A stretch of 64,000 nucleotides of DNA from Desulfovibrio sp. GTDB taxonomy: Bacteria > Desulfobacterota > Desulfovibrionia > Desulfovibrionales > Desulfovibrionaceae. Below, piece by piece: positions 22,342 to 47,873 of this stretch; position 1 is the stretch's first letter, and every line of letters starts with the position of its first letter. The stretch spans positions 262,701 to 326,700 of the forward strand of contig JAQYWK010000004.1 in the NCBI GenBank assembly GCA_030145055.1, read 5' to 3'. The notes under the pieces are model-generated. The model searched no databases and was not told the DNA's origin. It saw only the letters and a list, made by a program, of their open reading frames with translations. A program made the position numbers and the translations under genes.

Positions 22342-22764
22342 ATGGAACAGATGAAAATCATGCTTGTAGATGATGAAGAGCGTCTGCTCAGCACAACAAA
22401 AAAACTTTTCGAGAAGATGGGGATTGATGTTTTTACGTCAACGTCCGGAAAGGATGCTCTCGAACAGCTTGCGACTGAAGACGTACATGTAATCTTCCTG
22501 GATATAAAGATGCCTGGAATGGATGGCATGGAGACTTTGCAGCGTATCAAGAAAGATTATCCGCTTATCGAAGTGATCATTCTTACTGGACACGCAACGA
22601 TGGAGTCCGCAGTGGAAGGCCTTAAGCTGGGTGCGATGGATTTCCTGATTAAGCCTGTGAGTATGAAAGATATTCTTGGGAAGGTTGAGGAGGCTTTTGA
22701 AAAAGTTTCACGCCATAAGCAAAAAATTCTTTCTGCCTGGATGGCTGATGTTTCCGAAAGGTAG
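22342..22764 (+). CDS. Stand-alone receiver protein (RR1)
   Basis: A 140-residue CheY-like receiver starting MEQMKIMLVDDEERLL. It has the acidic pair, phospho-Asp in FLDIKMPGMDG, Thr in LTGHA and Lys in IKPV. It has no output domain; after the receiver only a short helical tail remains. The start is chosen after the promoter; M at 22,351 is an alternative, and neither has a strong Shine-Dalgarno. It is the first gene of operon 1, followed by a CBS-fused receiver. Confidence 0.9.
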   Translation: MEQMKIMLVDDEERLLSTTKKLFEKMGIDVFTSTSGKDALEQLATEDVHVIFLDIKMPGMDGMETLQRIKKDYPLIEVIILTGHATMESAVEGLKLGAMDFLIKPVSMKDILGKVEEAFEKVSRHKQKILSAWMADVSER

Positions 22765-22800
22765 AAAGTAAAAACCGATAGAACTTCAAGGAGGTTGATA

Positions 22801-23700
22801 ATGAGTAAAATTAAGGTCCTCATGGTCGACGATGAGGAACGCTTCCGCAACACGACAGCGAAGATACTGTCCCGCAAAGGATTTCAAACTATTCTAGCTG
22901 CGAGTGGCGAAGAAGCCTTGGAAAAACTAGGGGGAAATCCGGATGTAGTTATTCTGGATGTGAAGATGAGTGGAATGGACGGGCATCAGACATTAGAGAA
23001 GATTAAAGCGATTATGCCCGATCTTCCGATTATCATGCTTACAGGTCATGGAGATCTTTCCGGTGCCAGAAAAGCTTACAAAACCGGCGCATTCGATTTT
23101 CTTGCTAAGCCATGTGACATTGATCTTTTAGCTGATAAAATCCATGACGCTTACATTTCTGCCTCCAAAAAACCGTATCAGGAGAAGTTGGCAGAGGAAA
23201 TAATGATTCCTCTGGATGACTATACCCTGATTTCGGATAACAGCACCGTACGTGATGCAATCGCAGCACTGAAAAAGGCCATGAGCGAATTTGTGGCTAC
23301 GAATAAGTTGATGGACACAGGACATCGTTCGGTTGTTGTCACTAACTCAAACGGCAGCGTTGCTGGTATACTTAATCCCCTAAATCTTATCAACGCAATT
23401 AGGCCCGATTATCTGACAGCCCCTAAGCCTTCTATGGCAGACAGTCTGCAGTATTCAGCCATGTTCTGGGAAGGGCTTTTCACTTCCCGCGTTAAAGAAA
23501 TTATGAACAGACCTGTGCGTGAACTGATGTCTGAAATCCTTCCGATCATTAGCTTTGACGCAAACCTGATGGATGTTGCCAATAACATGGTGACCATGCC
23601 TGCACGGCGCATGGTTGTTCAGAAGGAAGGCAGGGATATAGGCATCGTCCGGGAGCAGGAAATCTTTTATGAGATCGCCCGGATAATATCATCTAATTAA
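22801..23700 (+). CDS. Response regulator with a CBS-domain pair (RR2)
   Basis: A 299-residue protein: receiver at about 1-125 (VDDEERF, ILDVKMSGMDG, LTGHGD, AKPCD), then two CBS motifs (IMIPLDDYTLISDNSTVRDAI and HRSVVVTNSNGSVAGIL; VRELMSEILPIISFDANLMDVA and RRMVVQKEGRDIGIV). CBS pairs usually sense adenosyl nucleotides and often regulate transporters. A DASS-type anion transporter follows by 31 bases, so this may couple phosphorylation and energy state to it. AGGAGG precedes the ATG at 22,801 (a TTG six bases earlier is not needed). Confidence 0.9.
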   Translation: MSKIKVLMVDDEERFRNTTAKILSRKGFQTILAASGEEALEKLGGNPDVVILDVKMSGMDGHQTLEKIKAIMPDLPIIMLTGHGDLSGARKAYKTGAFDFLAKPCDIDLLADKIHDAYISASKKPYQEKLAEEIMIPLDDYTLISDNSTVRDAIAALKKAMSEFVATNKLMDTGHRSVVVTNSNGSVAGILNPLNLINAIRPDYLTAPKPSMADSLQYSAMFWEGLFTSRVKEIMNRPVRELMSEILPIISFDANLMDVANNMVTMPARRMVVQKEGRDIGIVREQEIFYEIARIISSN

Positions 23701-23731
23701 TTATACTGAAGTAAAGCGATAGAGGTGAAAC

Positions 23732-25582
23732 ATGGCACAAGCAGAAAAAAGGGCGACAGGTTACGATAAGTTCGTCAACTGGAAGTTGCTGATAATTCCA
23801 GTAGTAATATTCATGGTGCTCCTTATTCTTCCTGCAACACAGGGAATGAAAAAGGTGGGAATGCAGTATTCCGTTGGCCCGAAGATTGTAACTAATTATA
23901 TTTGTGAACAACTTTTTAACACTAAAAGTTACAAAGTTGAGCAGTGGCAGGTGTTGACTGCCCAGATGATGGAACAAAATATGCGCATGGGAGCTTTATC
24001 CAAGGCTCGTTTTATGAAGCGTGATGCTAAGTGGTTGAAGAAATACAAGATTCAAGCTGATTCAGCTAATTTGAAAAAGGCTCTTAATTACGTAGACATT
24101 AAACTTACAGATAAAGCTTATATCACGGTAATGAAGAGCGCGTTTGAGCTTCGGAATAAGAATCTTTCGTATGAGGATTTATCCTCTTCAGAAAAGAAGA
24201 GTGCTGATAAGGGAGCATGGAAAATTCAGGTTGCCATCGCGATGGTTGTCTTTGTTGTCTTTTGCTTCATGACAGAATGTATGCCACTTCCCGGTGTCGC
24301 ATTTTGTATAGGTCTAATTCTTGTCTTTACTGGAGTCGTTTCACGAAGTGAGGTTGCAAGTCTTTATTGGTCTGATGCCTGCTGGTTTATCATGGGCTCG
24401 CTGATGTTCGCGGCCGCTTTCGTCAAGACTGGAGTGGATAAGAGAATGTGTCTGCTCATGTTTAAAAAACTGGCAGTTCCTAATGTGCGCTGGATTACGT
24501 TGATATTCTTCCTCGTAATTAGCCCGCTCGCCGCGTTTATTTCAGACCATGCACTGGCAGCAATGTTTCTGCCTATCGGTATGTTGCTTTATCAGAACAG
24601 TCTCACTGACGAGATTCCTGAAGATAAGGAACTTGCCAAGATGCTGATGATCGCAATTGCTATGGCTTGTAACATCGGTGGTCCAGGTGCTCCTTCCGGT
24701 GGTGCACGAAACGTTATTATGATGACTTATTTGTCAGACATGTTCGGCATGGACATTGGTTATGCCCAGTGGATCATGTATTGTATGCCGTTTGTCATCG
24801 TGATGATTCCTTTCACATGGATTGTAACCAATACCGTGTTTAAGCCGAAAATTCGTTCTTTAGCTCCAGCTATGCGTCACCTCGAAGGTGAAATAATAAA
24901 GATGGGCAAGTGGAACAAGAACCAGATCTGGGCAATGATCATTTTTGTTTTTATGGTCTTCGGTTGGTTTACCGAGAAGGCTTTCTTCAACATGGGAATC
25001 TATCCTATCCGCTTGGGCATCGGTGTAATAGCCGTTGCCGGAGCTGTGGCTTACCTGTTGACTGGTGTTGTTAACTGGCGAGATTATCAGGAGAAGGTCG
25101 ATTGGGGTGTAGTCTGGCTTTATGCGGGTGCAATCATCTTTGGTCGTACATTGGACAAGACCGGTGCTGCATATTGGTTAGCTCAGTCTGTTATCGATAC
25201 TCTTGCTCCGCTTGGTATGGATAAGGGTATTCCACTCATGTTGACCTCGAATGGTTTGACAGCTGTACTGACAAACTTAATGGCGGATGGTCCGGCCGCG
25301 GCCGCAGTTGGTCCTATAACTTTGAATATGGCTAGTATTGTCCATCCGGGAACAACGTTCCTGCCGTTTATGGCAATGGCTACAGCTATTTCATCTTCCT
25401 TTGCTTACTGCCTCATTATCGGAACTCCCCCTAACGCAATTGTATACGCTTCAGGATATCTTGAGCCTAAGGATTACCTTAGAGTCGGGGTGCCTATGTG
25501 GTTTATCGCGAACATTATGATCGTTATTCTCACATCACTATACTGGTGTGGAATTGGATTTGGTGGGTTACCGGGGTTTTAA
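23732..25582 (+). CDS. DASS/SLC13-family anion transporter
   Basis: A 616-residue Na+- or H+-coupled anion permease (sulfate, phosphate or dicarboxylate type). TM1 is at about 15-34. An unusual roughly 130-residue soluble segment (about 35-160) separates it from the conventional DASS core. The core has both hairpin signatures, FISDHALAAMFLPIGMLL (about 270-290) and the C-terminal SNGLTAVLTNLMADGP with GTPPNAIVYASGYL (about 505-580). In a sulfate reducer sulfate is an attractive substrate, but family members vary. GAGGTG precedes the ATG. A roughly 50-residue membrane peptide and a Yip1-type protein follow. Confidence 0.88.
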   Translation: MAQAEKRATGYDKFVNWKLLIIPVVIFMVLLILPATQGMKKVGMQYSVGPKIVTNYICEQLFNTKSYKVEQWQVLTAQMMEQNMRMGALSKARFMKRDAKWLKKYKIQADSANLKKALNYVDIKLTDKAYITVMKSAFELRNKNLSYEDLSSSEKKSADKGAWKIQVAIAMVVFVVFCFMTECMPLPGVAFCIGLILVFTGVVSRSEVASLYWSDACWFIMGSLMFAAAFVKTGVDKRMCLLMFKKLAVPNVRWITLIFFLVISPLAAFISDHALAAMFLPIGMLLYQNSLTDEIPEDKELAKMLMIAIAMACNIGGPGAPSGGARNVIMMTYLSDMFGMDIGYAQWIMYCMPFVIVMIPFTWIVTNTVFKPKIRSLAPAMRHLEGEIIKMGKWNKNQIWAMIIFVFMVFGWFTEKAFFNMGIYPIRLGIGVIAVAGAVAYLLTGVVNWRDYQEKVDWGVVWLYAGAIIFGRTLDKTGAAYWLAQSVIDTLAPLGMDKGIPLMLTSNGLTAVLTNLMADGPAAAAVGPITLNMASIVHPGTTFLPFMAMATAISSSFAYCLIIGTPPNAIVYASGYLEPKDYLRVGVPMWFIANIMIVILTSLYWCGIGFGGLPGF

Positions 25583-25655
25583 TAAACGATAATCAGGCTT
25601 ATATACCCCAGCGGTTTCCCTTTCGAGGGGGCCGCCGGGCCATGAGGGTAATATT

Positions 25656-25808
25656 ATGAAAAGTAGTGAAAAAAAAGAACAACTCTTTGTTTATAAAAAT
25701 GGCACCACTTATTTTACAAAGCAAACCGAGCGGAGATTTCTTTTTATTCTCACGCTTATCATGCTCGGCTGGGGCATGGTTGAAGGTTTTAATAGATTCA
25801 TAGGCTAG
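25656..25808 (+). CDS. Small single-pass membrane protein (50 aa)
   Basis: A short open frame: charged N-terminus MKSSEKKEQLF, KNGTTYFTKQTERRF, then one hydrophobic helix FLFILTLIMLGWGMV (about 29-43) and FNRFIG. GAGGG lies seven to eight bases upstream, and the next gene starts 11 bases after its stop, so the spacing is operonic. A hairpin (GCGG...CCGC, 25,611-25,635) precedes it. Possibly an accessory subunit of the adjacent DASS transporter; no family recognised. Confidence 0.65.
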   Translation: MKSSEKKEQLFVYKNGTTYFTKQTERRFLFILTLIMLGWGMVEGFNRFIG

Positions 25809-25818
25809 GAGGAATATT

Positions 25819-26367
25819 ATGGAAGCTTCATGCACGCATGCTGAAAAGATGGGAGTAAGGGAGTATATGGATACTCTTTTCGCGATTATGCGTTCTCCGG
25901 TTAAATATTTTGAAAGTGTTGCAGATGAGAGTGGATCTAGACGCGCACTTTTCTTTTTAATGATTTCGGGAATTTTTTATTGCTCGGTAAGCATGACATA
26001 TTTTTTTGAAAATTCCTTCACCATGGGCGTTATTATGATGATTAACGCCATTTTTATGCCTGCGCTTGGAGCTGCTTTTTCCTTTTGCATGATCAGTATG
26101 TCGACCCGGAGCAGAGTGCCATACGGTAAAATATTTAATGTATATGCTTATGCCGGTGGTGCTCTCATGGTCATTTCGTGGATTCCCGGTCTTGCAATGG
26201 TTTTGGAGCCTGTTCGCGCCGTGCTTGTAGGAATAGGTCTGGTAAAAGCGTGCGGTTTAGGAAAGATGCAGGCGGTATTTTTAGTTATAATAACTGCTGT
26301 TTTATTATTGATATTTTTTTGGACAGCCGCTCCGTTGGTTTTGGAATTGCGTTCAGTGTTCGGGTAG
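25819..26367 (+). CDS. YIP1-family membrane protein
   Basis: A 182-residue integral membrane protein with about five hydrophobic segments. YMDTLFAIMRSPVKYFESV at the N-terminus and NVYAYAGGALMVISWIPG (about 110-128) are typical of the prokaryotic Yip1 domain. The function of bacterial members is not established. It sits between the small membrane protein and a stand-alone receiver, with AGGAGG upstream. Confidence 0.8.
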   Translation: MEASCTHAEKMGVREYMDTLFAIMRSPVKYFESVADESGSRRALFFLMISGIFYCSVSMTYFFENSFTMGVIMMINAIFMPALGAAFSFCMISMSTRSRVPYGKIFNVYAYAGGALMVISWIPGLAMVLEPVRAVLVGIGLVKACGLGKMQAVFLVIITAVLLLIFFWTAAPLVLELRSVFG

Positions 26368-26494: not shown

Positions 26495-26872
26495 ATGAAG
26501 AAAATTAGGCTGCTGCTGGTAGATGACGAAAATGATTTTCTTAACGCTTATGTACGAAGGCTTGTTCGTCGTAATGTTGATGTAAGTGTGGCATGCAGCG
26601 GGCGGGATGCCATTGAGGCAATTAAAGCCGCGGACTTTGATGTCGTTGTTTTAGATGTAATGATGCCCGGAATGAACGGTCTTGAAACTCTTAGGCAGAT
26701 TAAAGATTTTTCACCTGCTCTTCCTGTCATCATTTTAACGGGGCATGCGAAATCTGAAGCTCTGATCGAGGGAATGGATTGTGGTGCTTTTGATTATCTG
26801 CTGAAGCCTATCGGAACCGATGATTTATATTACAAAATGTTAGATGCGATTCGGTCCCGGACTCTCTATTAA
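26495..26872 (+). CDS. Stand-alone receiver protein (RR3)
   Basis: A 125-residue single-domain receiver with all key residues (LVDDEND, VLDVMMPGMNG, LTGHA, LKPIG) and no output domain. GAGGAG precedes the ATG. It is 24 bases upstream of the first PEP-synthase-like gene, suggesting a functional pair. A second such pairing (RR11) exists in operon 2. Confidence 0.92.
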   Translation: MKKIRLLLVDDENDFLNAYVRRLVRRNVDVSVACSGRDAIEAIKAADFDVVVLDVMMPGMNGLETLRQIKDFSPALPVIILTGHAKSEALIEGMDCGAFDYLLKPIGTDDLYYKMLDAIRSRTLY

Positions 26873-26896: not shown

Positions 26897-29503
26897 ATGC
26901 GTTCCATCTTTGAGATTATATCAAGAGTTGTACTTCATCCTTCAACCGCGAAGGATGATGAATCAATACAGTTTCTTGCGCGGTGCGAAAATTTTAGATT
27001 GTTGCTTGCTGCGAACAATAAGGCTTTGAAAATTATGGCGGAGATGAGCGAAGAAGCCCGTTCAAATGACCTTTTTGGAATGTCTCATGTCAGATCTCAA
27101 AGTCTTAAGGTTTCAGCAAATGTTCGCCAAATGATTGAACGTCTATGCCGCATGAGCCCTGGTAAGTATGATACTTTAAAAGATGTTTTCAATGTAATTG
27201 TTATGGATATGGAAAAAGCTTTGGAAAGTAGCACTGGGCAATGCTGTGGATCTTTGATTTTAAGTATGGATCAAATCAGTGCAGATTCTATTTCTGAAAC
27301 AGGATCTAAAATGGCCATGCTTGGAGAAATTCGTTCCAAGCTGGGTATCCGAGTTCCTGAAGGGTTTTCCATAACAGCTTCAGCCTTTTTATCCTTTATG
27401 GAAAATTCTGGTTTGGATGACGAAATTAATCGTTTGATTCAAATAGCTGACAGTAATGATTTAAACGATCTTCTTGTGCTGGAAGAAAATATAAAACATG
27501 CAATAGATCTTGCAGCCATGCCGACTGAACTTGAAGATGCCATCGAAAAATATTGCGCAGATCTTTTGGCGGGCGTACCAGATTTACGGTTGGCGATACG
27601 CAGCAGCGCACTCGGAGAAGATTCAGGAGAAGCAAGTTTTGCAGGGCAATTTATTTCTGTTTTGGGAGTTTTACCCGAGAACATAATTGATTCTTATCGG
27701 GCTGTTGTTGCAAGCATGTATTCTGCGACCGCCATGACTTATCTATTGAATAAGGGACTTCGGGAAGATGAGCTTATCATGTGTGTAGGTTGTCTTGAAA
27801 TGATTGAAGCCGTGGCGGGAGGAGTAATATATACTTCTGATCCTATTGGTAAAAACAAGAATGCGTTGATAATAAGCGGAGTCCCGGGGCACCCTAGTTC
27901 GATTGTTGATGGCAGTGCGCTTGCGGATACATGGGTTATGGATCGTACTGATCGTACCCTTCGTGATGTGTTTATCGCAGACAAAGAATGGCAATGTCTA
28001 AGTTCGGAAAATGGTGAAATTTATAGAGTTAAAATGTGTGAAAATAGACGTAGTGCTCCTTCAATTCCTTATTCCGCAATTACTGAACTTGTTGAAATTG
28101 CGCTCAGAATTGAAAAGCATTTCAATTGCCCGCAGGATATTGAATGGGTTAAATCTTCGGACGGTCAGATTTATATACTGCAATGTCGTCCCCTGTCCGT
28201 TACTGATTCCCAGAGAAATGTCGAACAAATCCCAAAAAAAGATGAACATGAATCTCACGTTATTTTAAGAAATTGTATCCCTGCCAGTCACGGCTTTGCT
28301 TGCGGTGAAGTCGTCATGGTTGAAACAGATGATGATATGTTTAATTTTCCTGACGGCGCAGTTTTGCTTACTTATAACGCGAAACCTCGCTTGGCTGTGA
28401 TCTTGCCGAGGGCTGCAGCTCTTATTTCGGAACATGGAAGCGCAACCGGACATCTTGCGAATGTTGCTAGAGAATTTGGAATTCCCGCTTTTATCGGAGT
28501 TAAGGGGGCTGTGAAGAATTTGTCCGAAGCTAGAGTTGTTACTGTAAATACGGCTACTGGTAAAATTTATAAAGGTTGCTTCGAAGATCAAAATCCTATT
28601 CGGGAGAAGAAGCCTGTTCTGCCGCAGAATAACCCCGTAACAACAGCCTTACGGAATACTCTGCCTTTTATTGTTCCGCTTTCGTTGACGGTCCCGGATT
28701 CATCTGAGTTTAGACCGTCTAATTGTACATCTCTGCACGATATTACCAGATATTGTCACGAAAAGGCTGTAGCGGAAATGTTTCGTAAAAATGCTATGTC
28801 CGCAGCAAATGCCAAGAGATTGAAGGGAGAACGTTTACTTCAATATTGGTTGATCGATCTCGGAGGTGGAACTTCTTCTTCGGTTGATGATAAATATGTA
28901 AGTCTCTCCGATATTAGCTCAAATACTATGAAATCGTTGTGGATAGGTATGACGAAAATTCCCTGGGATGGTCCGCCTCCGGTTCAGGCCTCCGGGCTGA
29001 TATCTGTTATATCTGAAGCAGCTTGTAATCCGGCACTGGCTCCGGGAATGTCCAATGATCTGGGCGATCGGAACTATTTCATAGTGTCCAGAAATTATTG
29101 CAATCTACAATCCCGCTTCGGTTTCCATTTTTGCACGGTGGAAGGGTATGCCGGGGATGATCCTGATGAAAATTATGCTTTTTTCCAATTTACAGGCGGT
29201 GGAGCAGACAAATCGCGCCGTATGATTCGTTCATGGTTGATAGCGGGAATTCTTGAAAAACAGGGATTTATTGTTGACGTGAAGGAAGATTCGCTTTTTG
29301 CCAGAATTGAAGGTGTTGCGGCGGAAGTTGTTGAGCAGGCACTTGCTGTTGCCGGATACTTGCTGGTTCATACCAGACAAATTGACATGGTTATGTCGGA
29401 TTCTAATGCATACCGGAACTATCAGGTTAAATTCGAACAGGGTATAGAAGCTGTTTTATCAAGTTATAGTAGCCAAAATTCCGAGCATGGTAGGTCTTTA
29501 TGA
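26897..29503 (+). CDS. PEP-synthase-like phosphotransferase with novel C-terminal domain (PPS-A)
   Basis: An 868-residue protein. Residues about 1-115 are a helical domain. Residues about 125-430 form a PEP-synthase-type ATP-grasp domain (KMAMLGEIRSKLGIRVPEGF, RSSALGEDSGEASFAGQF, DIEWVKSSDGQIYILQCRPL). Residues about 460-565 are the swivelling phosphohistidine domain with ATGHLANVAREFGIPA, His about 519. The TIM-barrel PEP/pyruvate domain is absent. Instead residues about 575-868 form a domain (LHDITRYCHEKAV, IPWDGPPPV, SRFGFHFCTVE) shared with PPS-B at 43,145. Probably ATP phosphorylates the His and an unknown acceptor receives it. Its stop overlaps HK2 by ATGA. Confidence 0.85.
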   Translation: MRSIFEIISRVVLHPSTAKDDESIQFLARCENFRLLLAANNKALKIMAEMSEEARSNDLFGMSHVRSQSLKVSANVRQMIERLCRMSPGKYDTLKDVFNVIVMDMEKALESSTGQCCGSLILSMDQISADSISETGSKMAMLGEIRSKLGIRVPEGFSITASAFLSFMENSGLDDEINRLIQIADSNDLNDLLVLEENIKHAIDLAAMPTELEDAIEKYCADLLAGVPDLRLAIRSSALGEDSGEASFAGQFISVLGVLPENIIDSYRAVVASMYSATAMTYLLNKGLREDELIMCVGCLEMIEAVAGGVIYTSDPIGKNKNALIISGVPGHPSSIVDGSALADTWVMDRTDRTLRDVFIADKEWQCLSSENGEIYRVKMCENRRSAPSIPYSAITELVEIALRIEKHFNCPQDIEWVKSSDGQIYILQCRPLSVTDSQRNVEQIPKKDEHESHVILRNCIPASHGFACGEVVMVETDDDMFNFPDGAVLLTYNAKPRLAVILPRAAALISEHGSATGHLANVAREFGIPAFIGVKGAVKNLSEARVVTVNTATGKIYKGCFEDQNPIREKKPVLPQNNPVTTALRNTLPFIVPLSLTVPDSSEFRPSNCTSLHDITRYCHEKAVAEMFRKNAMSAANAKRLKGERLLQYWLIDLGGGTSSSVDDKYVSLSDISSNTMKSLWIGMTKIPWDGPPPVQASGLISVISEAACNPALAPGMSNDLGDRNYFIVSRNYCNLQSRFGFHFCTVEGYAGDDPDENYAFFQFTGGGADKSRRMIRSWLIAGILEKQGFIVDVKEDSLFARIEGVAAEVVEQALAVAGYLLVHTRQIDMVMSDSNAYRNYQVKFEQGIEAVLSSYSSQNSEHGRSL

Positions 29504-32464: not shown

Positions 32465-32487
32465 TGACAGAATATCAGGAGTATAAG

Positions 32488-37442: not shown

Positions 37443-37468
37443 AAATTACCAATATATCTGCTTAATAG

Positions 37469-39860: not shown

Positions 39861-40292
39861 ATGTTGGCTACTATTCTTCTTATCGATGACGAGCATGGAT
39901 TTGTGGACACCATGTCAAAGCGACTCAGCAAGCGAAGTTTGACTGTTCACACCGCGTATAACGGACAGGAGGGGCTTGAGGCTCTTGCAGAGAACAGCGG
40001 CATTGATGCTGTGGTTCTGGATGTAAAAATGCCCGGTATTAATGGAATTGATGTTCTTAAAATAATCAAGACAGAATATCCGTTGGTAGAAGTCATTATG
40101 CTCACCGGACATGCCACTGTTGAAAGCGCCATTGATGGCATGAAAAACGGAGCATTTGATTATATGTTGAAGCCTTGTGAGATGGAAGAGCTTCTCTCAA
40201 AAATCAAAGATGCCTATCTCAAAAAGCAGTCTCAGGAATCTAAGATTTATGAGGCTAGAGCAAGGCATATTGAATTGCGCAGAGGTGACTAA
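39861..40292 (+). CDS. Stand-alone receiver protein (RR8)
   Basis: A 143-residue receiver (LIDDEHGF, VLDVKMPGING, LTGHA, LKPCE) with a Lys/Gln-rich C-terminal helix of about 20 residues. AGGAGG precedes the ATG. It is the first of three tandem receivers between HK6 and the TSUP transporter. Confidence 0.92.
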   Translation: MLATILLIDDEHGFVDTMSKRLSKRSLTVHTAYNGQEGLEALAENSGIDAVVLDVKMPGINGIDVLKIIKTEYPLVEVIMLTGHATVESAIDGMKNGAFDYMLKPCEMEELLSKIKDAYLKKQSQESKIYEARARHIELRRGD

Positions 40293-40303: not shown

Positions 40304-40675
40304 ATGAATACTGAAGTGATCCGGGTTCTGCTTGTAGATGATGAAACGGGGTTTACCGAGGTTTTACAAAAACGTCTTGGGAAACGCGGTTTGGATATTC
40401 TTACTGCAGTCGGTGGCACCGTCGCAATTCAGATTTTAAGGAAGAATGATTTTGATGTCGCGATTCTGGATCTCAAGATGGAAGACATGGATGGCATTGA
40501 GGTGCTCAAGATATTCAGAAAGATGGACCCTGACATGCCTGTAATCATGCTTACAGGGCACGGCTCGGAGAAAGCAGCAAAAGAGGGTGTGTCGCACGGT
40601 GCTTTTGATTATCTTTTAAAACCTTGTGATATTGAAGAGTTAATCGAAAAAATTCATCAGGCTGTTAATCGTTAA
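40304..40675 (+). CDS. Stand-alone receiver protein (RR9)
   Basis: A 123-residue receiver (LVDDETGF, ILDLKMEDMDG, LTGHGS, LKPCD), minimal length with no tail. The usual MPG after the phospho-Asp reads MED. GGGAG precedes the ATG, 12 bases after RR8. Confidence 0.92.
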   Translation: MNTEVIRVLLVDDETGFTEVLQKRLGKRGLDILTAVGGTVAIQILRKNDFDVAILDLKMEDMDGIEVLKIFRKMDPDMPVIMLTGHGSEKAAKEGVSHGAFDYLLKPCDIEELIEKIHQAVNR

Positions 40676-40690: not shown

Positions 40691-41101
40691 ATGTGCTCCA
40701 TCAAGGTGCTTCTTGTTGATGATGAGGGTGACTTCCTACGAACATTGGGCAAGCGGCTGAGTAAGCGCGGTAATGTAGTGGAACTGGCCGGATCCGGTGA
40801 GCAAGCTCTTTGTTTGCTTGAAAGATTTGAGGCGGATGTAGTTTTGCTAGATGTAAAAATGCCCGGGATGGACGGTTTGACACTTCTCAGTTTGATCAAG
40901 CAGAAATGGCCGCTCATTGAAGCCATTATGCTTACGGGGCACGCCAGTGTTGAGGTTGCCATTCGAGGTATGGAACTTGGTGCATTCGATTATATGATGA
41001 AACCTGTAAAATTTGAGAAGCTCTACTACAAATTGGAGGACGCCTTCAGACGCAAAATGCATCAGGAGGAGAGAATAATGGCAATGGTAAAAAATGGGTA
41101 A
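40691..41101 (+). CDS. Stand-alone receiver protein (RR10)
   Basis: A 136-residue receiver (LVDDEGDF, LLDVKMPGMDG, LTGHA, MKPVK) with a short charged tail (RRKMHQEERI). GGGGA precedes the ATG. It is immediately followed by the TSUP transporter gene. Confidence 0.92.
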   Translation: MCSIKVLLVDDEGDFLRTLGKRLSKRGNVVELAGSGEQALCLLERFEADVVLLDVKMPGMDGLTLLSLIKQKWPLIEAIMLTGHASVEVAIRGMELGAFDYMMKPVKFEKLYYKLEDAFRRKMHQEERIMAMVKNG

Positions 41102-41126: not shown

Positions 41127-42386
41127 ATGAATTTAGCACGTAAATTTTATGCAGCGATGCAGGAGGCAGCCATAGCTCATGCAAGATGGGACTTGGAGGT
41201 TTCCACCAGCATTATTAGGGATAAACGCAAGGTGTGGCTTCTTGCCATACTAACCGCGTTGGGGTTGATGGTTTCTCTCGCATTTGCGGATACCATTGAT
41301 TTGCCGTCAATGCTTGGCGGTAAAAAAGCATATACTCCCGCTTTCTATACTACTGGTATTTTTGTGGCATCTATCGCCATCGGGCTGTGTGCAGGTTTGA
41401 TTACCGGTTGTATCGGGGCTGGTGGAGGTTTCATCATTACTCCTGCTTTGATGTCGGCTGGTATCAAAGGGATTCTGGCAGTTGGTACCGATTTGTTCCA
41501 TATCTTTGCAAAGGCAATCATGGGAACGGCTGTACATAAGAAACTTGGTAATGTTTCAGCGAAACTGGCCGTGGCTTTCTTAGTGGGGTCAGGAGCAGGA
41601 GTTCTCGGGGGCGGTCTTTTGAACCGTATGATTTACGAGGCCAATCCTGTTGCATCTGATGCTTTTATTTCAGTTATTTACGTAGTTTTACTAGGATTTC
41701 TTGGAATATATGCAATGTCTGACTTCCTGCGGTTGCGTAAGTCCGGAGGCGGCGGTGACGCTCACGGAGGCGGCGGAGGAACAGGCGGACTTCCTGCGAA
41801 GCTTCAATCTGCGAATATTCCTCCAATGATTTCTTTTGATGAAGATTTGATTCCCGGCGGCAAAAAAATCTCCGGTCTGTTTGTTGCTCTCTGTGGTTTA
41901 GTTGTCGGGTTTATGGCTGCAATTATGGGTGTTGGCGGAGGCTTTCTTACCTTCCCAATGTTTGTATACGTACTTGGTGTAAGTTCTTTTACAACTGTTG
42001 GTACTGATATTTTCCAGATCATTTTTACTGCTGGATTTGCTGCAATAAGTCAGTACGCAATTTACGGTTTCATCTTTTATACTTTGGCAATGGGGATGTT
42101 ACTGGGGTCGTTACTGGGTATCCAGATAGGCGCACTCGTAACCAAGCTTGTTCCCGGATTATATATCCGAGGTTTTTACGCTCTGGCTATTTTGGCTGGT
42201 TTTGTAAACAGGCTGTTTGCTATGCCGGGTAAGTTAAATGATATGAAGTTTATTTCCATAAGTCAGGACTTGTCCGGGTTGCTAGCAAATATAGGTAACT
42301 GGCTGTTCTTCCTGACCATCGGAGTCTTTGCAGTGTGGGTAATAGGTACGTTCCTATCCAAAACCAAGGAACTGAGAGAGGGCTAA
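41127..42386 (+). CDS. TauE/SafE (TSUP) family anion exporter
   Basis: A 419-residue membrane protein with about eight to nine TM segments. Two family repeats are visible: GLITGCIGAGGGFIITPALM (about 90-110) and GFMAAIMGVGGGFLTFPMF (about 253-272), each followed by VGTD(L/I)F. A Gly/His-rich linker (about 205-222) joins the halves, and the N-terminal 45 residues are cytoplasmic. TSUP proteins move sulfite, sulfonates or other small sulfur/carboxylate anions. It is transcribed with receivers and the unknown two-TM protein four bases downstream. Confidence 0.92.
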   Translation: MNLARKFYAAMQEAAIAHARWDLEVSTSIIRDKRKVWLLAILTALGLMVSLAFADTIDLPSMLGGKKAYTPAFYTTGIFVASIAIGLCAGLITGCIGAGGGFIITPALMSAGIKGILAVGTDLFHIFAKAIMGTAVHKKLGNVSAKLAVAFLVGSGAGVLGGGLLNRMIYEANPVASDAFISVIYVVLLGFLGIYAMSDFLRLRKSGGGGDAHGGGGGTGGLPAKLQSANIPPMISFDEDLIPGGKKISGLFVALCGLVVGFMAAIMGVGGGFLTFPMFVYVLGVSSFTTVGTDIFQIIFTAGFAAISQYAIYGFIFYTLAMGMLLGSLLGIQIGALVTKLVPGLYIRGFYALAILAGFVNRLFAMPGKLNDMKFISISQDLSGLLANIGNWLFFLTIGVFAVWVIGTFLSKTKELREG

Positions 42387-42389: not shown

Positions 42390-43100
42390 ATGTTGGTACG
42401 TAATAAAAAAGCATTTTATCAGGGGCTGACTCTTGCTATAGGTTTTCTGGCCGTTCTCTATTATATGTTTACCCCGAGTTTTAATGGCATGAATGCATTT
42501 CATGCTTCAGATGACCTGTTTAATTCAATCTCCAAGGGCTCTACTTATTATATTCCTCAAGTAATGGATGGAATTAAAAAGTTTGATGGGCAAAGTTTTG
42601 AAACAACCATTTTTAAGGATCAGCCGAAGTATATTCCATATGCTACGACTTTGCTGAAAGAAAATGGTTTCAACGTTTCCAAGGCGGAGCAGGGTATAGT
42701 TGTTTCCGGAGATATTGCGAAACTTATGACCAGTGTAACTGAAGATTCAGATGTCATGTTTCATAATAAAGGCCAAGTTCTTGAAGAAAAATATAGAATG
42801 GATGCCAGACAGGCTTTGTTTGTTTGGTGGCACACGATGAAAGAAGTGAAAAGTTCTTTGGATCAACAGAAAGCTTTTCCTCCAGCAACATTCATCGGTA
42901 AGAATGTTATTAACCGTGCCATAGAAGTTGGTTACAACTATTATGGTATTGAAGGGCAACAAGCTTCTGAACGCTGGGGCGTCATTGCTTTCTCACTGAT
43001 TTTCTACGTTGTTTACACCATGTGGTGGGGGTATGCTATATTCTTCATGTTCGAAGGAATAGGTTTGGAAATGACGTCAAGTAGAAAAAAAGAAGCGTAA
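42390..43100 (+). CDS. Unknown protein with two terminal TM helices, paired with TSUP
   Basis: A 236-residue protein with one TM helix near the N-terminus (about 11-29), a roughly 160-residue extracytoplasmic middle (NGMNAFHASDDLFNSIS, then the FVWWHTMKEVKSSL helix) and a second TM near the C-terminus (about 193-220, aromatic-rich YVVYTMWWGYAIFFMF). I do not recognise the family. It begins three bases after the TSUP stop, so it may be a subunit. The design (TM, soluble segment, TM) resembles the odd N-terminal part of the DASS transporter in operon 1. Confidence 0.8.
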   Translation: MLVRNKKAFYQGLTLAIGFLAVLYYMFTPSFNGMNAFHASDDLFNSISKGSTYYIPQVMDGIKKFDGQSFETTIFKDQPKYIPYATTLLKENGFNVSKAEQGIVVSGDIAKLMTSVTEDSDVMFHNKGQVLEEKYRMDARQALFVWWHTMKEVKSSLDQQKAFPPATFIGKNVINRAIEVGYNYYGIEGQQASERWGVIAFSLIFYVVYTMWWGYAIFFMFEGIGLEMTSSRKKEA

Positions 43101-43144: not shown

Positions 43145-45736
43145 ATGAGCTTCTTTGACTGGCTTCCTTTCAGGAAAAAACAAGCCGAGAAAACACAAGA
43201 AGATCTGGCGGAAATTCGCCGGACGTTCGCGACCCGCTATGATCATTTCAGGTTGCTTATTCAGGCTAACTCCGAAACTCACGAATTGATGGCTGAGCTT
43301 GAAGAGGCTCTTCGTGGATTTCAGCCTTACGGAATGCATTATGTGCGGGCTTTATGTACTCGCATTTCTACATCAATTTTCCAAATGATAAGACATCTGA
43401 ATGAACTTGATCAGGGGTCATATGAAAAACTCTATGATCAGTTTTCAGTTATTCAGGATAAAATTGTACCTCATCTTGAGTCCAGACAACATAACGGAGA
43501 AGGAAAGCTTGTTCTTGCTCTTTCTGAGGTAGGGCGGGATCAGGCTGATCTTTGTGGGCCTAAGATGGCAACCCTCGGCGAAGCTGGAAACAAGCTCGGG
43601 CTTAAAATTCCAGCAGGTTTTGTTGTAACAACAGTTTCCTTTAGCAAATTTATGAAAAAGGAAGGGTTGGAGGAAGAGATCGATCGGTTGATTCAAACTG
43701 CTGATGCAGATGATAGTGAAGCTATGTTTCAGGTTTCATCAAAGATCATGCAACTGATTATTCAGTCTGATCTGCCAGATGATGTCGCGGCGTCTATCTT
43801 GGAGGCATATGATTTTTTATGTGGCAGTCAGGGTGGAGAGGTTAAGGTCGCGGTCCGTTCAAGTGCTTTAGGTGAAGATAGTGAAGGGGCCGCCTTTGCG
43901 GGCCAGTATCGTTCTATTTTAAACGTAGATCGTAGTTCTCTGATTTTAGCGTGTAAAGAAGTCATGGCTTCCAAATATTCTCTGCAGGCGATGGCTTACC
44001 GCATCAATCGGGGCATCCGAGATGAGGATGTTGCAATGAGTGTCGGTTGTATAATGATGATTGAAGCTGCTGCAGGTGGGGTTGCATATTCGCGGAGTCC
44101 TATGAATATCCGCGATGAAAATATTTCAATTTATTCCGTGTGGGGACTGCCGAAGGCTGTTGTTGACGGTTCTGTGGAGGCTGATGAATTTATGGTCGGT
44201 CGAACTGTTCCCATGCAGGTTATCGGTCACCATATAGCAGATAAGGAAGAGAAATATGTCTGTGATACAGGAGAGGGCGTTTGCAGCGTTCAGCAACTTA
44301 CCAGTCGGAGAACTGAGCCTTCGTTAACTGATGAGCAACTCGTAATCATTGCAGAACAGGCTGTTCGCATTGAGGACCATTTCGGCCCTGCTCAGGATAT
44401 TGAATGGGCAATCACGAAAGAGGGTGATCTTTATATTTTGCAATGCAGACCCTTAATGCAGCTTGAAGGGTCTCCTGAAGGGGTGTTGCAAAGTAGCTCG
44501 GTGTCTATTCCAGAGCTTACGGGTGGAAGAACAGCCAGTCCAGGGGTTGGAACCGGACCAATTTTTCATGTGCGTAAGGATGCAGATACTCTTCATTTTC
44601 CGGATGGCGGTGTTTTAGTTATTAAGCAGGCTTTACCTAGTCGTGCGGCTCTTTTGAGTCGATGCAGTGCTGTGATAACTGAGCAGGGCGGTATTGCCGG
44701 ACATTTAGCTAATGTGTCCAGAGAGTTCGGAGTTCCTGCTCTTTTCGGAGTGAAAGGAGCTCTTACCAGTTTTGAAGAAGGGCAAGTGGTAACTGTGGAT
44801 GCGGATGGGCGTGCAATTTATGACGGACGGATTACTGAGTTGCTTAAAGAAAAACCAAGGCACCGTCTTATGCGCGGGAGCTCTGTTCAGGCAACACTCA
44901 GAAAAGCCGCTAGACATATTGTACGGCTGAATCTGATTGATCCTGATTCTCTTAAATTTAAACCTGCCTACTGTAAAACTTTGCATGACATTATGCGTTA
45001 TTGCCATGAAATGGCTGTTCGCGAAATGTTCGAATTCGGTACTAAAAAAGAATTTGTTCAGGCCGCATCCCGCCAACTTATTTGCAATGTTCCGAAACAA
45101 TTTTGGATTCTTAATCTCGGTGACGGCATTGCTCCCGAAGGGAGAAAAAGAGCGGATAGATGTGTTCTTTTGGAACATATAAATTCTGCCCCCATGCAAG
45201 CTTTATGGGAAGGCATGCAGGCTGTCCCCTGGGAAGGTCCTCCGGCGGTGCATACGAAGGGATTATTGTCTGTAATGTTTGAAGCAACTGTTAATCCTGA
45301 TTTGAATACTACTAGCTCTTCTCGTTTTTCTCAGAGAAATTATTTCATGATTTCGGAGAGATATTGTTGTCTGCAATCCCGTTTCGGTTTTCATTTCTGC
45401 GGAGTTGAAGCTCTGCTTGGCGACCGGGTAAGTGAGAATTATGCAAGTTTTCAATTCAAAGGGGGAGCCGCTAATCTGGAGCGTCGTATTCTACGGGCAA
45501 AATTCGTTGGTGAAATTCTCGATGAATTTGATTTCAAAGTGAGGATCAGGGAAGACAATTTGAATGCCCGCCTTGAAGGTCTCGAGCGTTTGAGTATGGA
45601 AAGACGACTTAAAATTTTAGGTTATCTCATTACTCACACACGTCAGCTTGATATGATCATGACCAATAGTTTCGAAGTTGAAAAATATAAAAAGAAGTTT
45701 TTCGAAGATTTCAAGATGTTTCATGCTGTACAATAA
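43145..45736 (+). CDS. PEP-synthase-like phosphotransferase with novel C-terminal domain (PPS-B)
   Basis: An 863-residue paralogue of PPS-A with the same layout: helical N-domain (about 1-115), ATP-grasp (KMATLGEAGNKLGLKIPAGF, RSSALGEDSEGAAFAGQY, DIEWAITKEGDLYILQCRPL), swivelling domain with EQGGIAGHLANVSREFGVPA (His about 520), no TIM-barrel PEP site, and the shared C-terminal domain (LHDIMRYCHEMAV, VPWEGPPAV, SRFGFHFCGVE, LEGLERLS). It lies between the TSUP/unknown pair and a receiver (RR11). The conserved C-domain in both copies suggests it selects the phosphoryl acceptor. Confidence 0.85.
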   Translation: MSFFDWLPFRKKQAEKTQEDLAEIRRTFATRYDHFRLLIQANSETHELMAELEEALRGFQPYGMHYVRALCTRISTSIFQMIRHLNELDQGSYEKLYDQFSVIQDKIVPHLESRQHNGEGKLVLALSEVGRDQADLCGPKMATLGEAGNKLGLKIPAGFVVTTVSFSKFMKKEGLEEEIDRLIQTADADDSEAMFQVSSKIMQLIIQSDLPDDVAASILEAYDFLCGSQGGEVKVAVRSSALGEDSEGAAFAGQYRSILNVDRSSLILACKEVMASKYSLQAMAYRINRGIRDEDVAMSVGCIMMIEAAAGGVAYSRSPMNIRDENISIYSVWGLPKAVVDGSVEADEFMVGRTVPMQVIGHHIADKEEKYVCDTGEGVCSVQQLTSRRTEPSLTDEQLVIIAEQAVRIEDHFGPAQDIEWAITKEGDLYILQCRPLMQLEGSPEGVLQSSSVSIPELTGGRTASPGVGTGPIFHVRKDADTLHFPDGGVLVIKQALPSRAALLSRCSAVITEQGGIAGHLANVSREFGVPALFGVKGALTSFEEGQVVTVDADGRAIYDGRITELLKEKPRHRLMRGSSVQATLRKAARHIVRLNLIDPDSLKFKPAYCKTLHDIMRYCHEMAVREMFEFGTKKEFVQAASRQLICNVPKQFWILNLGDGIAPEGRKRADRCVLLEHINSAPMQALWEGMQAVPWEGPPAVHTKGLLSVMFEATVNPDLNTTSSSRFSQRNYFMISERYCCLQSRFGFHFCGVEALLGDRVSENYASFQFKGGAANLERRILRAKFVGEILDEFDFKVRIREDNLNARLEGLERLSMERRLKILGYLITHTRQLDMIMTNSFEVEKYKKKFFEDFKMFHAVQ

Positions 45737-45774
45737 AATTACGATTAAACTTGTTATACTGAGAGGTTAAGAAA

Positions 45775-46194
45775 ATGTCAGTGAACGTACTTCTGGCCGA
45801 TGATGAAAAAGGTTTTGTCGAGGCTTTAGCCCGGCGTCTGACAAAGCGCGGTTATACTGTGCAACAGGTTAACAGCGGCAGGGCGGCTGTTGATATCCTT
45901 GCAGATGATTCGAGTGTAGATGTCGTTGTGCTTGACGTTCGAATGCCGGAACCTAACGGGTTGGACACTCTCCATCTTATTAAAACGAAGTATCCTGCTG
46001 TGGAAGTTGTTATGCTGAGTGCTTATGGAACTCCTTTATGTACGATGGAAAGTATCCGATGGGGAGCATTTAAATTTCTGAACAAACCCGTTGAGTTGAA
46101 TGAGTTGATTACAACTATTGATGAAGCCGCCAAAGTTGGGCGTGTTCATCGCCAGAATATTAACGCTAAAGAATTGCAAATGGATCAGGCCTAA
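45775..46194 (+). CDS. Stand-alone receiver protein (RR11)
   Basis: A 139-residue receiver. The acidic pair is ADDEKGF, phospho-Asp is in VLDVRMPEPNG, and Lys in NKPVE. The switch segment is LSAYGT rather than LTGHA, so it differs from its neighbours. GAGAGG precedes the ATG. It follows PPS-B and precedes the SulP transporter by 11 bases. Confidence 0.9.
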   Translation: MSVNVLLADDEKGFVEALARRLTKRGYTVQQVNSGRAAVDILADDSSVDVVVLDVRMPEPNGLDTLHLIKTKYPAVEVVMLSAYGTPLCTMESIRWGAFKFLNKPVELNELITTIDEAAKVGRVHRQNINAKELQMDQA

Positions 46195-46205
46195 GGAGAA
46201 ATGTC

Positions 46206-47873
46206 ATGAAAGGTGGCTTTATGCCTACCGCTTTGCGGGGTGATGTTTTCGGAGGTCTGACTGCGGGTATTATCGCTTTACCCCTTGCTTTGGCTTTTGG
46301 TGTGGCAAGCGGCGCAGGAGCTGCTGCCGGTCTTTATGGGGCAATTATTCTTGGATTTTTCGCGACCATATTAGGTGGTACCCCGACTCAGGTTTCAGGT
46401 CCGACAGGCCCGATGACAGTCGTTACTGCTACAGCCTTAGCTGCTTATTCCGGGGAATTCCAATCTGTCTGTATGGTAATTGTTCTGGCGGGAGTCATTC
46501 AGATTCTTTTCGGCGTGTTCCATTTGGGAGGATTTGTCCGGTTTATCCCTTATCCGGTTATCTCAGGTTTTATGACAGGCATTGGCATAATTATTATTTT
46601 GCTTCAAATTGAGCCTGTGCTGGGCTGTGCAGGGGCTGGTTCTCCGTTAATGGCTATCGCGCAAATGCCGGAAGCTCTGGCGAATGTGTCTCTTCCAAGT
46701 CTTTCTCTGGCTGTTGCAACCATGATTATTGTGTTTATGATTCCTCCACGCATCACGAGGGTTGTTCCGTCTCCTCTTATTGCTCTGGTGGGTATGACTG
46801 CTGTTGCATGGACTTTTCATCTGCCTGTTCCCACTATCGGAGAAATACCTTCGGGTTTGCCTGAATTTCATTTACCCTCCATCAATTTATCCCAATGGAG
46901 CAGCATTGCCGGAACAGCGTTAGCTCTGGCTTTGTTAGGAACAATCGATTCTTTGTTGACTTCTATAGTGGCGGACTCTGTAACAAAGGATCATCACGAT
47001 TCAAACAGAGAGCTTATCGGGCAAGGTGTAGGTAATGCCTTATGCGGTTTTATGGGAGGTCTTCCCGGCGCAGGGGCAACCATGCGAACTGTCGTCAACA
47101 TCAAGGCTGGGGGTCGGACCAGATTATCCGGTGTTATTCATTCTCTGGTACTTTTGGTGATACTTCTAGGAGCGGGCCCGTTGGCTGCACATATTCCACT
47201 TGCTGTGCTGGCGGGTATTTTAGTCAAAGTAGGTGTTGATATTCTTGACTATAGGCTGCTCCGTCTCGTTCGTAAAATTCCGCGTGAGGATTTAATGGTA
47301 ATGGTTACAGTGTTCGGAGTTACAGTCTTCGTTGACTTGATTGTTGCGGTGGCTCTCGGAGTAACGCTTGCAGCGATTATGACTACGTGGCGCATAGCCA
47401 GTCAGACCCGCATAAGTATTCTGGGTGCGGGAAAGTGTAAGGATAAGTCTTTTTCTGATCGCGAGATTCAGGAGGGCAGTAATTTTCGTATTCGTGTCGT
47501 CACCATAAATGGTCCGTTCTTTTTTGGCACAACCTCTCAGATGACGGATAAAGTAGAAAGTTTGCTTGGTACGCGTATTGTGGTTGTGGATTGTATGGAA
47601 GTTCCCTTTATTGATATTTCCGCAGTTTTCGCTTTAAGCGAAATGGTTGAAAAACTTCGCGATGTAAACATTCGGGTTGTTCTTGCACTGGGGGATGACA
47701 TGTGTCAGCGCATGAAAGAACTTGGACTCATCAAAATTGTAGGCGAAGAGAACATTTTCAAAAGTCATGGCAGTGCCTTGCAAATGGCGCAGATGCTTTT
47801 AGATGAAGACGATGAAATGTTGCTAATTCCTGAAGGAATGGAGGACTCTGTAAAAAAGTCATGTAATGTTTGA
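46206..47873 (+). CDS. SulP-family anion transporter with STAS domain
   Basis: A 555-residue transporter with about 11-14 membrane segments (DVFGGLTAGIIALPLALAFGVASGAG at the N-terminus, QVSGPTGPMTVVT about 60-75) and a cytoplasmic C-terminal STAS domain (about 425-530, FFFGTTSQM, VVDCMEVPFIDISAVFAL). SulP members carry sulfate, bicarbonate or dicarboxylates. In sulfate reducers they are candidate sulfate importers. AAGGAGA precedes the ATG. It is the last gene of operon 2, and its stop lies ten bases before the tRNA-Arg remnant. Confidence 0.93.
   Translation: MKGGFMPTALRGDVFGGLTAGIIALPLALAFGVASGAGAAAGLYGAIILGFFATILGGTPTQVSGPTGPMTVVTATALAAYSGEFQSVCMVIVLAGVIQILFGVFHLGGFVRFIPYPVISGFMTGIGIIIILLQIEPVLGCAGAGSPLMAIAQMPEALANVSLPSLSLAVATMIIVFMIPPRITRVVPSPLIALVGMTAVAWTFHLPVPTIGEIPSGLPEFHLPSINLSQWSSIAGTALALALLGTIDSLLTSIVADSVTKDHHDSNRELIGQGVGNALCGFMGGLPGAGATMRTVVNIKAGGRTRLSGVIHSLVLLVILLGAGPLAAHIPLAVLAGILVKVGVDILDYRLLRLVRKIPREDLMVMVTVFGVTVFVDLIVAVALGVTLAAIMTTWRIASQTRISILGAGKCKDKSFSDREIQEGSNFRIRVVTINGPFFFGTTSQMTDKVESLLGTRIVVVDCMEVPFIDISAVFALSEMVEKLRDVNIRVVLALGDDMCQRMKELGLIKIVGEENIFKSHGSALQMAQMLLDEDDEMLLIPEGMEDSVKKSCNV

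Follow-up and report, generated by a model that had tools for sequence, protein, structure and literature searches.

Two gene clusters already in print come closest to the locus described here. The first is the Desulfovibrio "nitrate cluster" (DVU0251-DVU0245 / Dde_0597-Dde_0605), which brings together a TSUP permease, a small protein, a sensor kinase, a stand-alone receiver and a protein with PPDK_N and PEP-utilizer domains (PMC4001038). Transposon mutants in DVU0251 (TSUP), DVU0247 (receiver) and DVU0246 (the PPDK_N/PEP-utilizer protein) were nitrate-resistant, growing equally with and without 100 mM nitrate, and insertions in the three types of gene share one phenotype in a related clade (PMC4001038). 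Insertion in DVU0245 conferred no nitrate protection on D. vulgaris, unlike disruption of its homologue in G20, which gave high fitness in nitrate; for DVU0250, pooled and single mutants were inconsistent (PMC4001038). Judging by the domains, gene order and gene sizes published for it, DVU0246 probably belongs to the family of PEP synthase-like proteins, hereafter PPS, that is the subject of this analysis.

The second is a DASS sulfate-transporter cluster described in 2025 for a total of 26 species, Desulfosarcina variabilis and sulfate reducers related to it, in which a DASS permease tied to sulfate uptake is accompanied by cache kinases, response regulators and CBS proteins (PMC11887813). 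Section 14 of that paper proposes that DASS and SulP are controlled at the level of expression; the paper also proposes WalR-type regulators and suggests that the CBS proteins sense adenylate or APS; PPS is not mentioned in the section, and "phosphoenolpyruvate" has zero matches in the main text. The first-pass annotation of the present locus knew of no described system of this composition, a statement that these two reports do not bear out. A further observation, which may concern PPS, comes from D. desulfuricans, where Ddes_1644, annotated as a pyruvate phosphate dikinase, adjoins a sigma-54-interacting gene; both were lowered by nitric oxide, as was an APS reductase subunit (PMC5701242).

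Within the 64-kb window (the whole stretch of DNA that was analysed), a 25.5-kb span holds two operons whose 24 genes were all confirmed by Pfam and their translations to lie on the + strand in the order first listed; coordinates below refer to that strand unless stated otherwise. Operon 1 is preceded by a perfect match to the -24/-12 sigma-54 promoter pattern (TGGCACGTTGGTTGCA, 22251..22266) and operon 2 by a one-mismatch element (37624..37639), in keeping with the earlier description of both as sigma-54 operons; at two mismatches the pattern is not above chance (31 observed vs 32.6 expected). A hairpin search placed a terminator-like structure between the two (37467..37502). Operon 1 begins with a stand-alone receiver (RR1, 22342..22764), a receiver fused to a CBS region (RR-CBS, 22795..23700) and a DASS anion:Na+ symporter (23732..25582) that exceeds the NCBIfam TIGR00785 cut-off and whose matched domain is preceded by a long N-terminal stretch. 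These are followed by a 50-aa small membrane protein whose homologues adjoin DASS elsewhere (smp, 25656..25808), a Yip1-domain membrane protein (25819..26367), the stand-alone receiver RR2 (26495..26872) and PPS-A (26897..29503). The remainder consists of kinases and receivers: a dCache histidine kinase (HK1, 29500..31161), RR3 (31170..31568), the histidine kinase HK2 (31565..32464), RR4 (32464..32922) and a PAS histidine kinase (HK3, 32948..34444), RR3 and RR4 being stand-alone receivers. Upstream of operon 1 lie another dCache histidine kinase (HK0, 20343..22034), whose position is kept in loci L049 and L051-L053, and a divergent AAA+ sigma-54 activator (PF00158; 17586..20156, - strand) that flanks the operon in some relatives too (L049, L051 and L052).

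Operon 2 comprises a pseudo-receiver with a weak Pfam match (37676..38092), a dCache histidine kinase (HK5, 38064..39812), three stand-alone receivers (RR5, 39861..40292; RR6, 40304..40675; RR7, 40691..41101), a TSUP permease that has the N-terminal extension of TM2-linked TSUPs (41127..42386), a membrane protein without known family that appears to be its partner (TM2, 42390..43100), PPS-B (43145..45736), the stand-alone receiver RR8 (45775..46194) and a SulP permease with a STAS domain (46206..47873). As initially noted, each operon holds one PPS-like enzyme adjoining a stand-alone receiver (RR2/PPS-A and RR8/PPS-B). A 4HB_MCP sensor kinase (HK4, 34537..36039) and an NtrC-type sigma-54 response regulator (36024..37442) had been assigned to operon 1; by synteny this pair (34537-37442) travels with operon 2 where the operons separate. 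Nor do the operons form the one large system first envisaged: they are separable modules adjoining in only some relatives, and among the eight same-genus genomes in which both PPS orthologues were seen, the window genome included, five carry them on different contigs or more than 0.3 Mb apart.

Each operon resembles one of the published clusters. Operon 1 combines, by Pfam, a DASS permease with cache kinases, receivers and a CBS protein, a likeness to the clusters of PMC11887813 that is one of description, not of sequence. Operon 2 unites a TSUP, a kinase, a stand-alone receiver and a PPS, as the nitrate cluster does. The latter differs in its PhnD/PtxB-like binding protein and DSP phosphatase, in having DVU0250 in place of TM2, in a PPS from another clade, and in the absence of DASS, CBS and SulP; conversely, Pfam found no PhnD/PtxB-like protein, DVU0250 or DSP phosphatase among the 24 genes of the window. 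The seven-gene order of the nitrate cluster is complete in 17 of 20 relatives, and the PPS of relatives found by gene order has the same C-terminal domain in all 20 loci, and also in L107. Apparent PtxB-kinase fusions in two loci (L212 and L228) were rejected, PtxB lying in another, overlapping frame.

Ten of the 11 receivers of the span retain the CheY-type acid pair, phospho-acceptor Asp, Thr/Ser and Lys, the exception being the pseudo-receiver of operon 2, which has lost the acid pair, the Asp and the Lys; the H-box, D-x-G-x-G and G-x-G-L-G-L motifs are present in the five kinases of the span and in HK0. Given 127 receiver matches in the 3.9 Mb of the window genome, fewer than one receiver would be expected in 25.5 kb at random density. 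That the stand-alone receivers may act through protein contacts is consistent with the published mutant data.

Among the permeases, SulP is the least conserved (near 5 of 181 PPS genes), and its best NCBIfam match, below cut-off, is the bicarbonate transporter BicA; because it looks nearer to BicA, the notion that DASS, TSUP and SulP are all sulfate transporters was rejected. TM2 (model pLDDT 92.1; nothing similar in the PDB by Foldseek at E<=0.001) is fused to TSUP as one protein in L145, and in 58 of 80 layouts PPS is the very next gene 3' of it. Among TSUPs linked to TM2 and at least 380 aa long, 49 of 67 carry the motif A[RQM]W[DE] in the N-terminal extension, as do none of 28 TSUPs of at least 250 aa without that link; a first, more complex pattern had zero matches. 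The association is not strict. In a phylum sample, and against a partial PPS list, 27 of 75 TM2 places lack a listed PPS to a distance of 20 kb; in seven same-genus loci (L034-L040) the PPS-B orthologue does not immediately follow TSUP-TM2; and the window genome itself holds TSUP-TM2 and REC, CBS and DASS genes without an adjoining PPS, as well as a third PPS, which has a phosphatase-like gene beside it but no permease that was labelled as such.

Both PPS proteins retain the ATP-binding domain (PF01326, PPDK_N) and His swivel (PF00391) of PEP synthase (pyruvate, water dikinase), with which their catalytic His aligns (His520 in PPS-B). They differ from it in an extra N-terminal region of about 120 aa and in lacking, by Pfam, the PEP/pyruvate barrel, in place of which stand about 290 C-terminal residues without any Pfam match. 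This C-terminal domain has no PDB sequence match at E<=1, and its model (pLDDT 85.5) has no Foldseek PDB match at E<=0.001. Arginine-kinase and DesK entries returned for the PPS C-terminal and TM2 models were set aside as noise since query-normalised TM-scores among the 50 matches listed reach just 0.22 and 0.23, respectively. All 181 relatives keep the swivel His, and all keep Asp615 of the C-terminal domain; His621, Arg784 and Asp804 are each present in 180. Rifampicin phosphotransferase and the PigC/RedH ligases likewise consist of dikinase modules in which the acceptor domain has been exchanged, but their domain order is different, and the PPS proteins fall far under their NCBIfam cut-offs (for rifampicin phosphotransferase NF041857, 224.9 and 191.1 vs 999). 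PADLOC returned no match for PPS-A, PPS-B or TM2, and no PPS-receiver fusion occurs among the gene layouts examined.

Within 6 kb on either side of 181 PPS genes from Desulfobacterota, we found a TSUP, DASS or SulP gene in 124 cases, a stand-alone receiver in 138, a kinase in 128, all three kinds in 93 and CBS genes in 32, against a chance expectation in the window genome of about 0.04 TSUP or DASS genes (SulP left out) per such stretch. No labelled transporter lies within this distance of 57 PPS genes; for the 109 with full flanks, the figures are 82 with a transporter, 27 without and 92 with a receiver. The association of transporter, receiver and PPS on which the first-pass annotation had staked its reading is real and conserved across the phylum. 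Among 296 genomes, PPS is present in 110, aprA, a gene of sulfate respiration, in 119 and both in 103 (odds ratio 156; Fisher p about 8e-53, uncorrected, kinship being allowed for only through genus and family counts), so that most sampled sulfate-respiring lineages of the phylum carry PPS; the control gene nifH is far more weakly associated (odds ratio 3.5). All 38 sampled families with PPS, of a total taken as 96, have aprA, and the best 80 of 456 PPS relatives bear Desulfobacterota or Deltaproteobacteria names, L172 being without lineage. This co-occurrence and the two cluster papers (PMC4001038, PMC11887813) support the sulfur-anion role originally suggested.

The best reading of these data, to which we would give an even chance, is that receivers control PPS, a phosphotransferase that would in turn activate the oxyanion permease with which it is paired, its chemistry and acceptor being inferred. 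In favour of it are the linkage to transporters and receivers, the conserved catalytic residues, the co-occurrence with aprA and the mutant phenotypes of the nitrate cluster. Each operon would be a copy of a module recurring in sulfate reducers: a DASS or TSUP permease for oxyanions with its own small membrane partner (smp/Yip1 or TM2), sensor kinases, stand-alone receivers and a PPS. The dCache kinases would sense the external anion and phosphorylate stand-alone receivers, one of which may dock on PPS; the swivel His, phosphorylated from ATP as in PEP synthase, would swing to the new C-terminal domain and there serve an acceptor, presumably either the complex of permease and partner or some small molecule, whereupon uptake would be switched on. 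Transcription of the TSUP module would be governed by HK4-NtrC together with sigma-54. Control in both modules of the window would accordingly take the direction of an on-switch. The literature searched names no phosphoryl acceptor for PPS, which counts against this reading, as do the failure to find a PPS-receiver fusion, the PPS genes with no labelled transporter nearby, the TSUP-TM2, REC, CBS and DASS genes with no PPS adjoining, and, for the nitrate cluster, its different PPS clade and membrane partner and the divergent DVU0250 and DVU0245 results.

PPS might instead be a metabolic enzyme whose C-terminal domain phosphorylates the imported compound or a product of it, trapping or activating it, with the two-component genes setting expression only. 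PEP synthase and rifampicin phosphotransferase, its relatives, act on small molecules, and the near-invariant polar residues D615, H621, R784 and D804 would suit a substrate pocket; yet one domain type serves three transporter families (TSUP, DASS and SulP), and receivers without a DNA-binding domain are the commonest counted neighbours, and we hold this alternative to be unlikely. Decidedly less probable is a PPS working on the adenylate pool, its His~P following ATP, AMP and pyrophosphate and either recycling the last two from sulfate activation or reporting on them to the permease. Sulfate activation yields AMP and pyrophosphate and the aprA reaction releases AMP, so that the co-occurrence with aprA would fit, as would the CBS genes near PPS, given the sensing suggested in PMC11887813; however, 16 of the 119 aprA genomes have no PPS, which is therefore dispensable for disposing of either compound. 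We also consider it improbable that the clusters amount to plain two-component control of transporter expression, with a separate role for PPS. The NtrC protein and sigma-54 elements, and the expression control proposed for DASS and SulP (PMC11887813, section 14), speak for it, but PPS is no transcription factor and its insertion phenocopies that of TSUP in the nitrate cluster (PMC4001038), where it should not be polar on TSUP because relatives have the PPS gene downstream of the permease gene. Finally, the plainly PEP synthase-like ATP-binding and His domains could mark ordinary paralogues stranded by chance in two-component islands, a very remote prospect given the missing PEP-binding barrel (Pfam), the conserved linkage and scores of 327.2 and 298.9 bits against a TIGR01418 cut-off of 739.75.

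Receiver-controlled activation of the permease could be taken further, though we hold the extension to be unlikely as a whole: PPS may represent a previously unrecognised signalling class of receiver-gated, ATP-driven His phosphotransferases that carry an acceptor domain of a new kind, serve dissimilatory sulfate reduction specifically and couple the ATP/AMP/pyrophosphate state of sulfate activation to the activity of permeases for sulfate, thiosulfate and related anions. If true, two-component signalling would be joined to a PTS-like phosphotransfer relay. Control of the uptake of sulfate and its analogues in sulfate reducers is poorly known, and PPS is a little-studied enzyme, resembling one half of PEP synthase joined to a domain without a match in the PDB fold search, that recurs among these bacteria. 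Its repeated presence beside anion transporters and stand-alone receivers suggests a new switch for the uptake of sulfate-like anions, and PPS modules offer a testable cause for sulfate reducers becoming resistant to nitrate, a matter of relevance to the control of souring.

All 24 genes described by the first-pass annotation were found on one strand and in the order it gave. A perfect sigma-54 element lies ~75 bases ahead of the first gene start of operon 1, the DASS and PPS-A module beginning at 22342; a terminator-like hairpin (37467-37502) separates it from operon 2, the TSUP-TM2-PPS-B-SulP module ending at 47873, whose own element (37624) has one mismatch. At two mismatches the pattern occurs at chance level within the window. 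Across 2.64 Mb of related loci the strict pattern was seen 47 times, where a crude model with equal base frequencies predicts ~3.8. A gene on the same strand starts no more than 350 bases downstream of 30 of the 47 matches, and in 16 of these 30 cases that gene is receiver-only. Ten of the eleven receivers are canonical, and the one opening operon 2 (37676) has indeed lost its phospho-acceptor, as its designation as a pseudo-receiver implied. PsiE, Usp, hemerythrin and stand-alone STAS genes follow operon 2 (48121-50894); a Usp-like gene is found near 18 of 181 PPS genes.

Both PEP-synthase-like (PPS) proteins of the window, PPS-A (26897-29503) and PPS-B (43145-45736), carry the PPDK_N and mobile His domains of Pfam, and both score far under the curated cut-offs for PEP synthase, rifampicin phosphotransferase and prodigiosin ligases. 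When a ten-member PPS profile is matched to solved PEP synthases, the catalytic His falls into register and the match covers the ATP and His domains, reaching no further than profile position 615. For the C-terminal stretch of ~290 residues, Pfam gave nothing, no sequence relative was found in the PDB, and the AlphaFold2 model (77 sequences, mean pLDDT 85.5) drew no Foldseek hit at E<=0.001. Labels for all four regions (N-terminal, ATP, His and C-terminal) were assigned in 176 of 181 PPS relatives. Since the swivel His is kept in every one of the 181, and ATP-site residues (K140 in 176, R238 in 178, E244 in 179, D245 in 177) and C-terminal residues (D615 in 181; H621, R784 and D804 in 180 each) are near-invariant, the predicted PPS chemistry is probably intact and the acceptor side new. 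One PPS (L060:13069-15627) has lost several otherwise near-invariant residues of the C-terminal domain and is possibly a decayed or regulatory copy.

PPS-B relatives occur in 54 of the 58 genomes comprising the window's own and those of its genus, family and order, and the 97 order-level PPS genes reduce to 86 at 85% identity. Genes were labelled, with profiles built on the window's own proteins, in loci from these genomes and in the best 80 loci of a GTDB scan that found 456 relatives. The neighbourhood proposed for a search in other genomes proved to be conserved: a receiver, a kinase and a transporter stand together within 6 kb of 93 of the 181 PPS genes. Taken singly, and with loci cut by contig ends included, a TSUP, DASS or SulP permease lies within 6 kb of 124 (TSUP 101, DASS 31, SulP 5), a stand-alone receiver of 138, a kinase of 128 and TM2, the membrane protein partnering TSUP (42390-43100 in the window), of 82; seven have none of the labelled families. 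Where both 6-kb flanks are complete (109 PPS genes), a transporter is present for 82 and a receiver for 92. From the seven TSUP frames and four DASS matches of the window genome, ~0.04 would be expected per stretch of that size.

The most frequent module has a kinase, then one to three receivers, then TSUP, TM2 and PPS; in 58 of 80 layouts PPS comes directly after TM2 and shares its strand. TSUP and TM2 form a single reading frame in L145, and the permease is replaced by DASS in L133 and L137 and by SulP in L144. Two or three PPS genes stand in tandem beside TSUP in L063, L064 and L101. Seven same-genus loci (L034-L040), whose PPS-B orthologues are 64-68% identical, lack a PPS immediately after TSUP-TM2: a kinase-receiver-TSUP-TM2 run lies a few genes away in L037, L039 and L040, is partial at the locus edge in L034, L035 and L038, and is not visible in L036. 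The operon 1 block (receiver, receiver-CBS fusion, DASS, 50-aa membrane protein, Yip1, receiver, PPS, kinase) is found again in the genus as well as in L073, and its run from the fusion to Yip1 is divergent from a PPS in L042. The HK4-NtrC pair (kinase 34537-36039, sigma-54 regulator 36024-37442), previously counted with operon 1, instead stands ahead of operon 2 in L028, L029, L032 and L033, operon 1 not adjoining, and operon 1 in L052 and L053 stops without it. HK4-type kinases occur within 6 kb of 15 of 181 PPS genes (11 of these among 84 in L109-L188), upstream or downstream of TSUP-TM2-PPS. Same-genus genomes with the two operons side by side are the window's own, G001 and G014. The earlier picture of one large system did not hold: the operons are on separate contigs in G005, G006 and G010 and >0.3 Mb apart in G015 and G016. 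Operons 1 and 2 are separable modules.

TM2-linked TSUPs (window 41127-41300 and relatives) share a conserved hydrophilic N-terminal extension. An A-x-W-D/E motif is present in 49 of 67 of them versus 0 of 28 other TSUPs, and the extension is a candidate docking site.

The PPS C-terminal domain was found in 110 of 296 evenly sampled Desulfobacterota genomes, TM2 in 71 and the sulfate-respiration gene aprA, over cut-off, in 119. PPS and aprA occur together in 103 genomes, PPS without aprA in 7 and aprA without PPS in 16 (odds ratio 156, Fisher p ~8e-53, a significance overstated by treating genomes as independent); the control nifH, over cut-off in 78 genomes, gave an odds ratio of 3.5, subject to the same overstatement. 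At family level, aprA is present in 38 of 38 PPS families, and 5 of 43 aprA families are without PPS. PPS is present in 70 of the 71 TM2 genomes; against a partial PPS list, 48 of 75 TM2 places have a member no more than 20 kb away and 27 do not. G261, of genus g32, is without aprA, PPS and TM2; the seven other listed genomes of that genus have all three.

The strongest pointer to post-translational activation comes by analogy with a related clade rather than the window's modules. Korte et al. 2014 (PMC4001038) tested transposon insertions in D. vulgaris DVU0251 (TSUP), DVU0250, DVU0247 (receiver) and DVU0246 (PPDK_N/PEP-utilizer), a putative PPS member by published domains, gene order and gene sizes; growth of these mutants was indistinguishable with or without 100 mM nitrate, which a DVU0245 insertion did not reproduce. 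The authors proposed a leaky thiosulfate transporter as the nitrate entry route, and PMC9723548 repeats nitrate resistance via a putative thiosulfate transporter. Two results argue against a simple reading of the mutants: DVU0250 mutants had low fitness when pooled, and Dde_0605, the D. alaskensis homologue of DVU0245, high fitness (PMC4001038). Of 59 genomes matching a PPS of this clade, 20 were fetched; all 20 proteins have the four PPS regions, and TSUP, DVU0250-like, PtxB-like, kinase, receiver, PPS and phosphatase genes were all labelled in 17. L226 stops ahead of any phosphatase; in L224 and L225 the receiver and PPS are present and TSUP is absent. The receiver has 119 residues in 12 of 20, fitting the published 360 bp of DVU0247 (PMC4001038). 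In these relatives the PPS gene follows TSUP, so the DVU0246 insertion should not silence TSUP, and a working transporter therefore seems to require PPS. The third PPS of the window genome (L048:7042-10636) belongs to this clade; the gene immediately after it (360 aa) is a homologue of the cluster's DSP phosphatase, and no labelled permease is nearby.

We see about an even chance that PPS is a phosphotransferase which, under control of a receiver, would turn on its partner permease. It appears less likely that PPS instead serves metabolism, with the anion taken up as its substrate, and a role in adenylate or PPi metabolism, suggested by co-occurrence with an AMP-producing pathway and by CBS partners, is quite improbable. 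A parallel is found in the window genome: in a SulP cluster (L229:334-7571, contig C5, ~145 kb ahead of the window), and likewise in L144, a Cytidylate_kin2 domain is joined to a receiver, so that a kinase-like domain and a receiver are physically and directly tied within a transporter cluster. The L229 cluster runs TetR-like gene (by eye), SulP-STAS, the fusion (404 aa), dCache kinase, receiver, kinase and receiver, and it resembles a TetR-repressor SulP cluster mentioned in PMC11887813. Cytidylate kinase-like genes also lie beside receivers and DASS in L168 (5335-6168 by PF13189, 1405-2253 by eye). Two further groups of the window genome have no adjoining PPS: TSUP beside a longer TM2 relative of 385 aa (L229:11140-13724), and receiver, CBS and DASS genes (L230:5340-7886).

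The view that no such system had been described needs revision, one clade being known genetically (PMC4001038) and one type having been published as a sulfate-uptake cluster (PMC11887813). The latter paper reports from Desulfosarcina variabilis a 30.5-kb cluster that combines DASS transporters with two-component and CBS genes, related clusters bringing the total to 26 species, and proposes that cache kinases sense sulfate; its main text, as distinct from figures and supplements, does not contain 'phosphoenolpyruvate'. A survey of sulfate transporters in sulfate reducers (PMC5840216) contains none of 'response regulator', 'histidine kinase', 'two-component' or 'phosphoenolpyruvate', and nine sigma-54 operons with TSUP or PSE transporters are reported in D. 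vulgaris (PMC4641369). Among the open-licence papers examined, and in the passages covered, none other than the nitrate-cluster paper (PMC4001038) groups a PEP-synthase-like gene with receivers and a transporter. The component parts are of known kinds. New, as far as our searches reach, is that these clusters share one enzyme family whose C-terminal domain has no match, and 103 of its 110 cases are in genomes with aprA.
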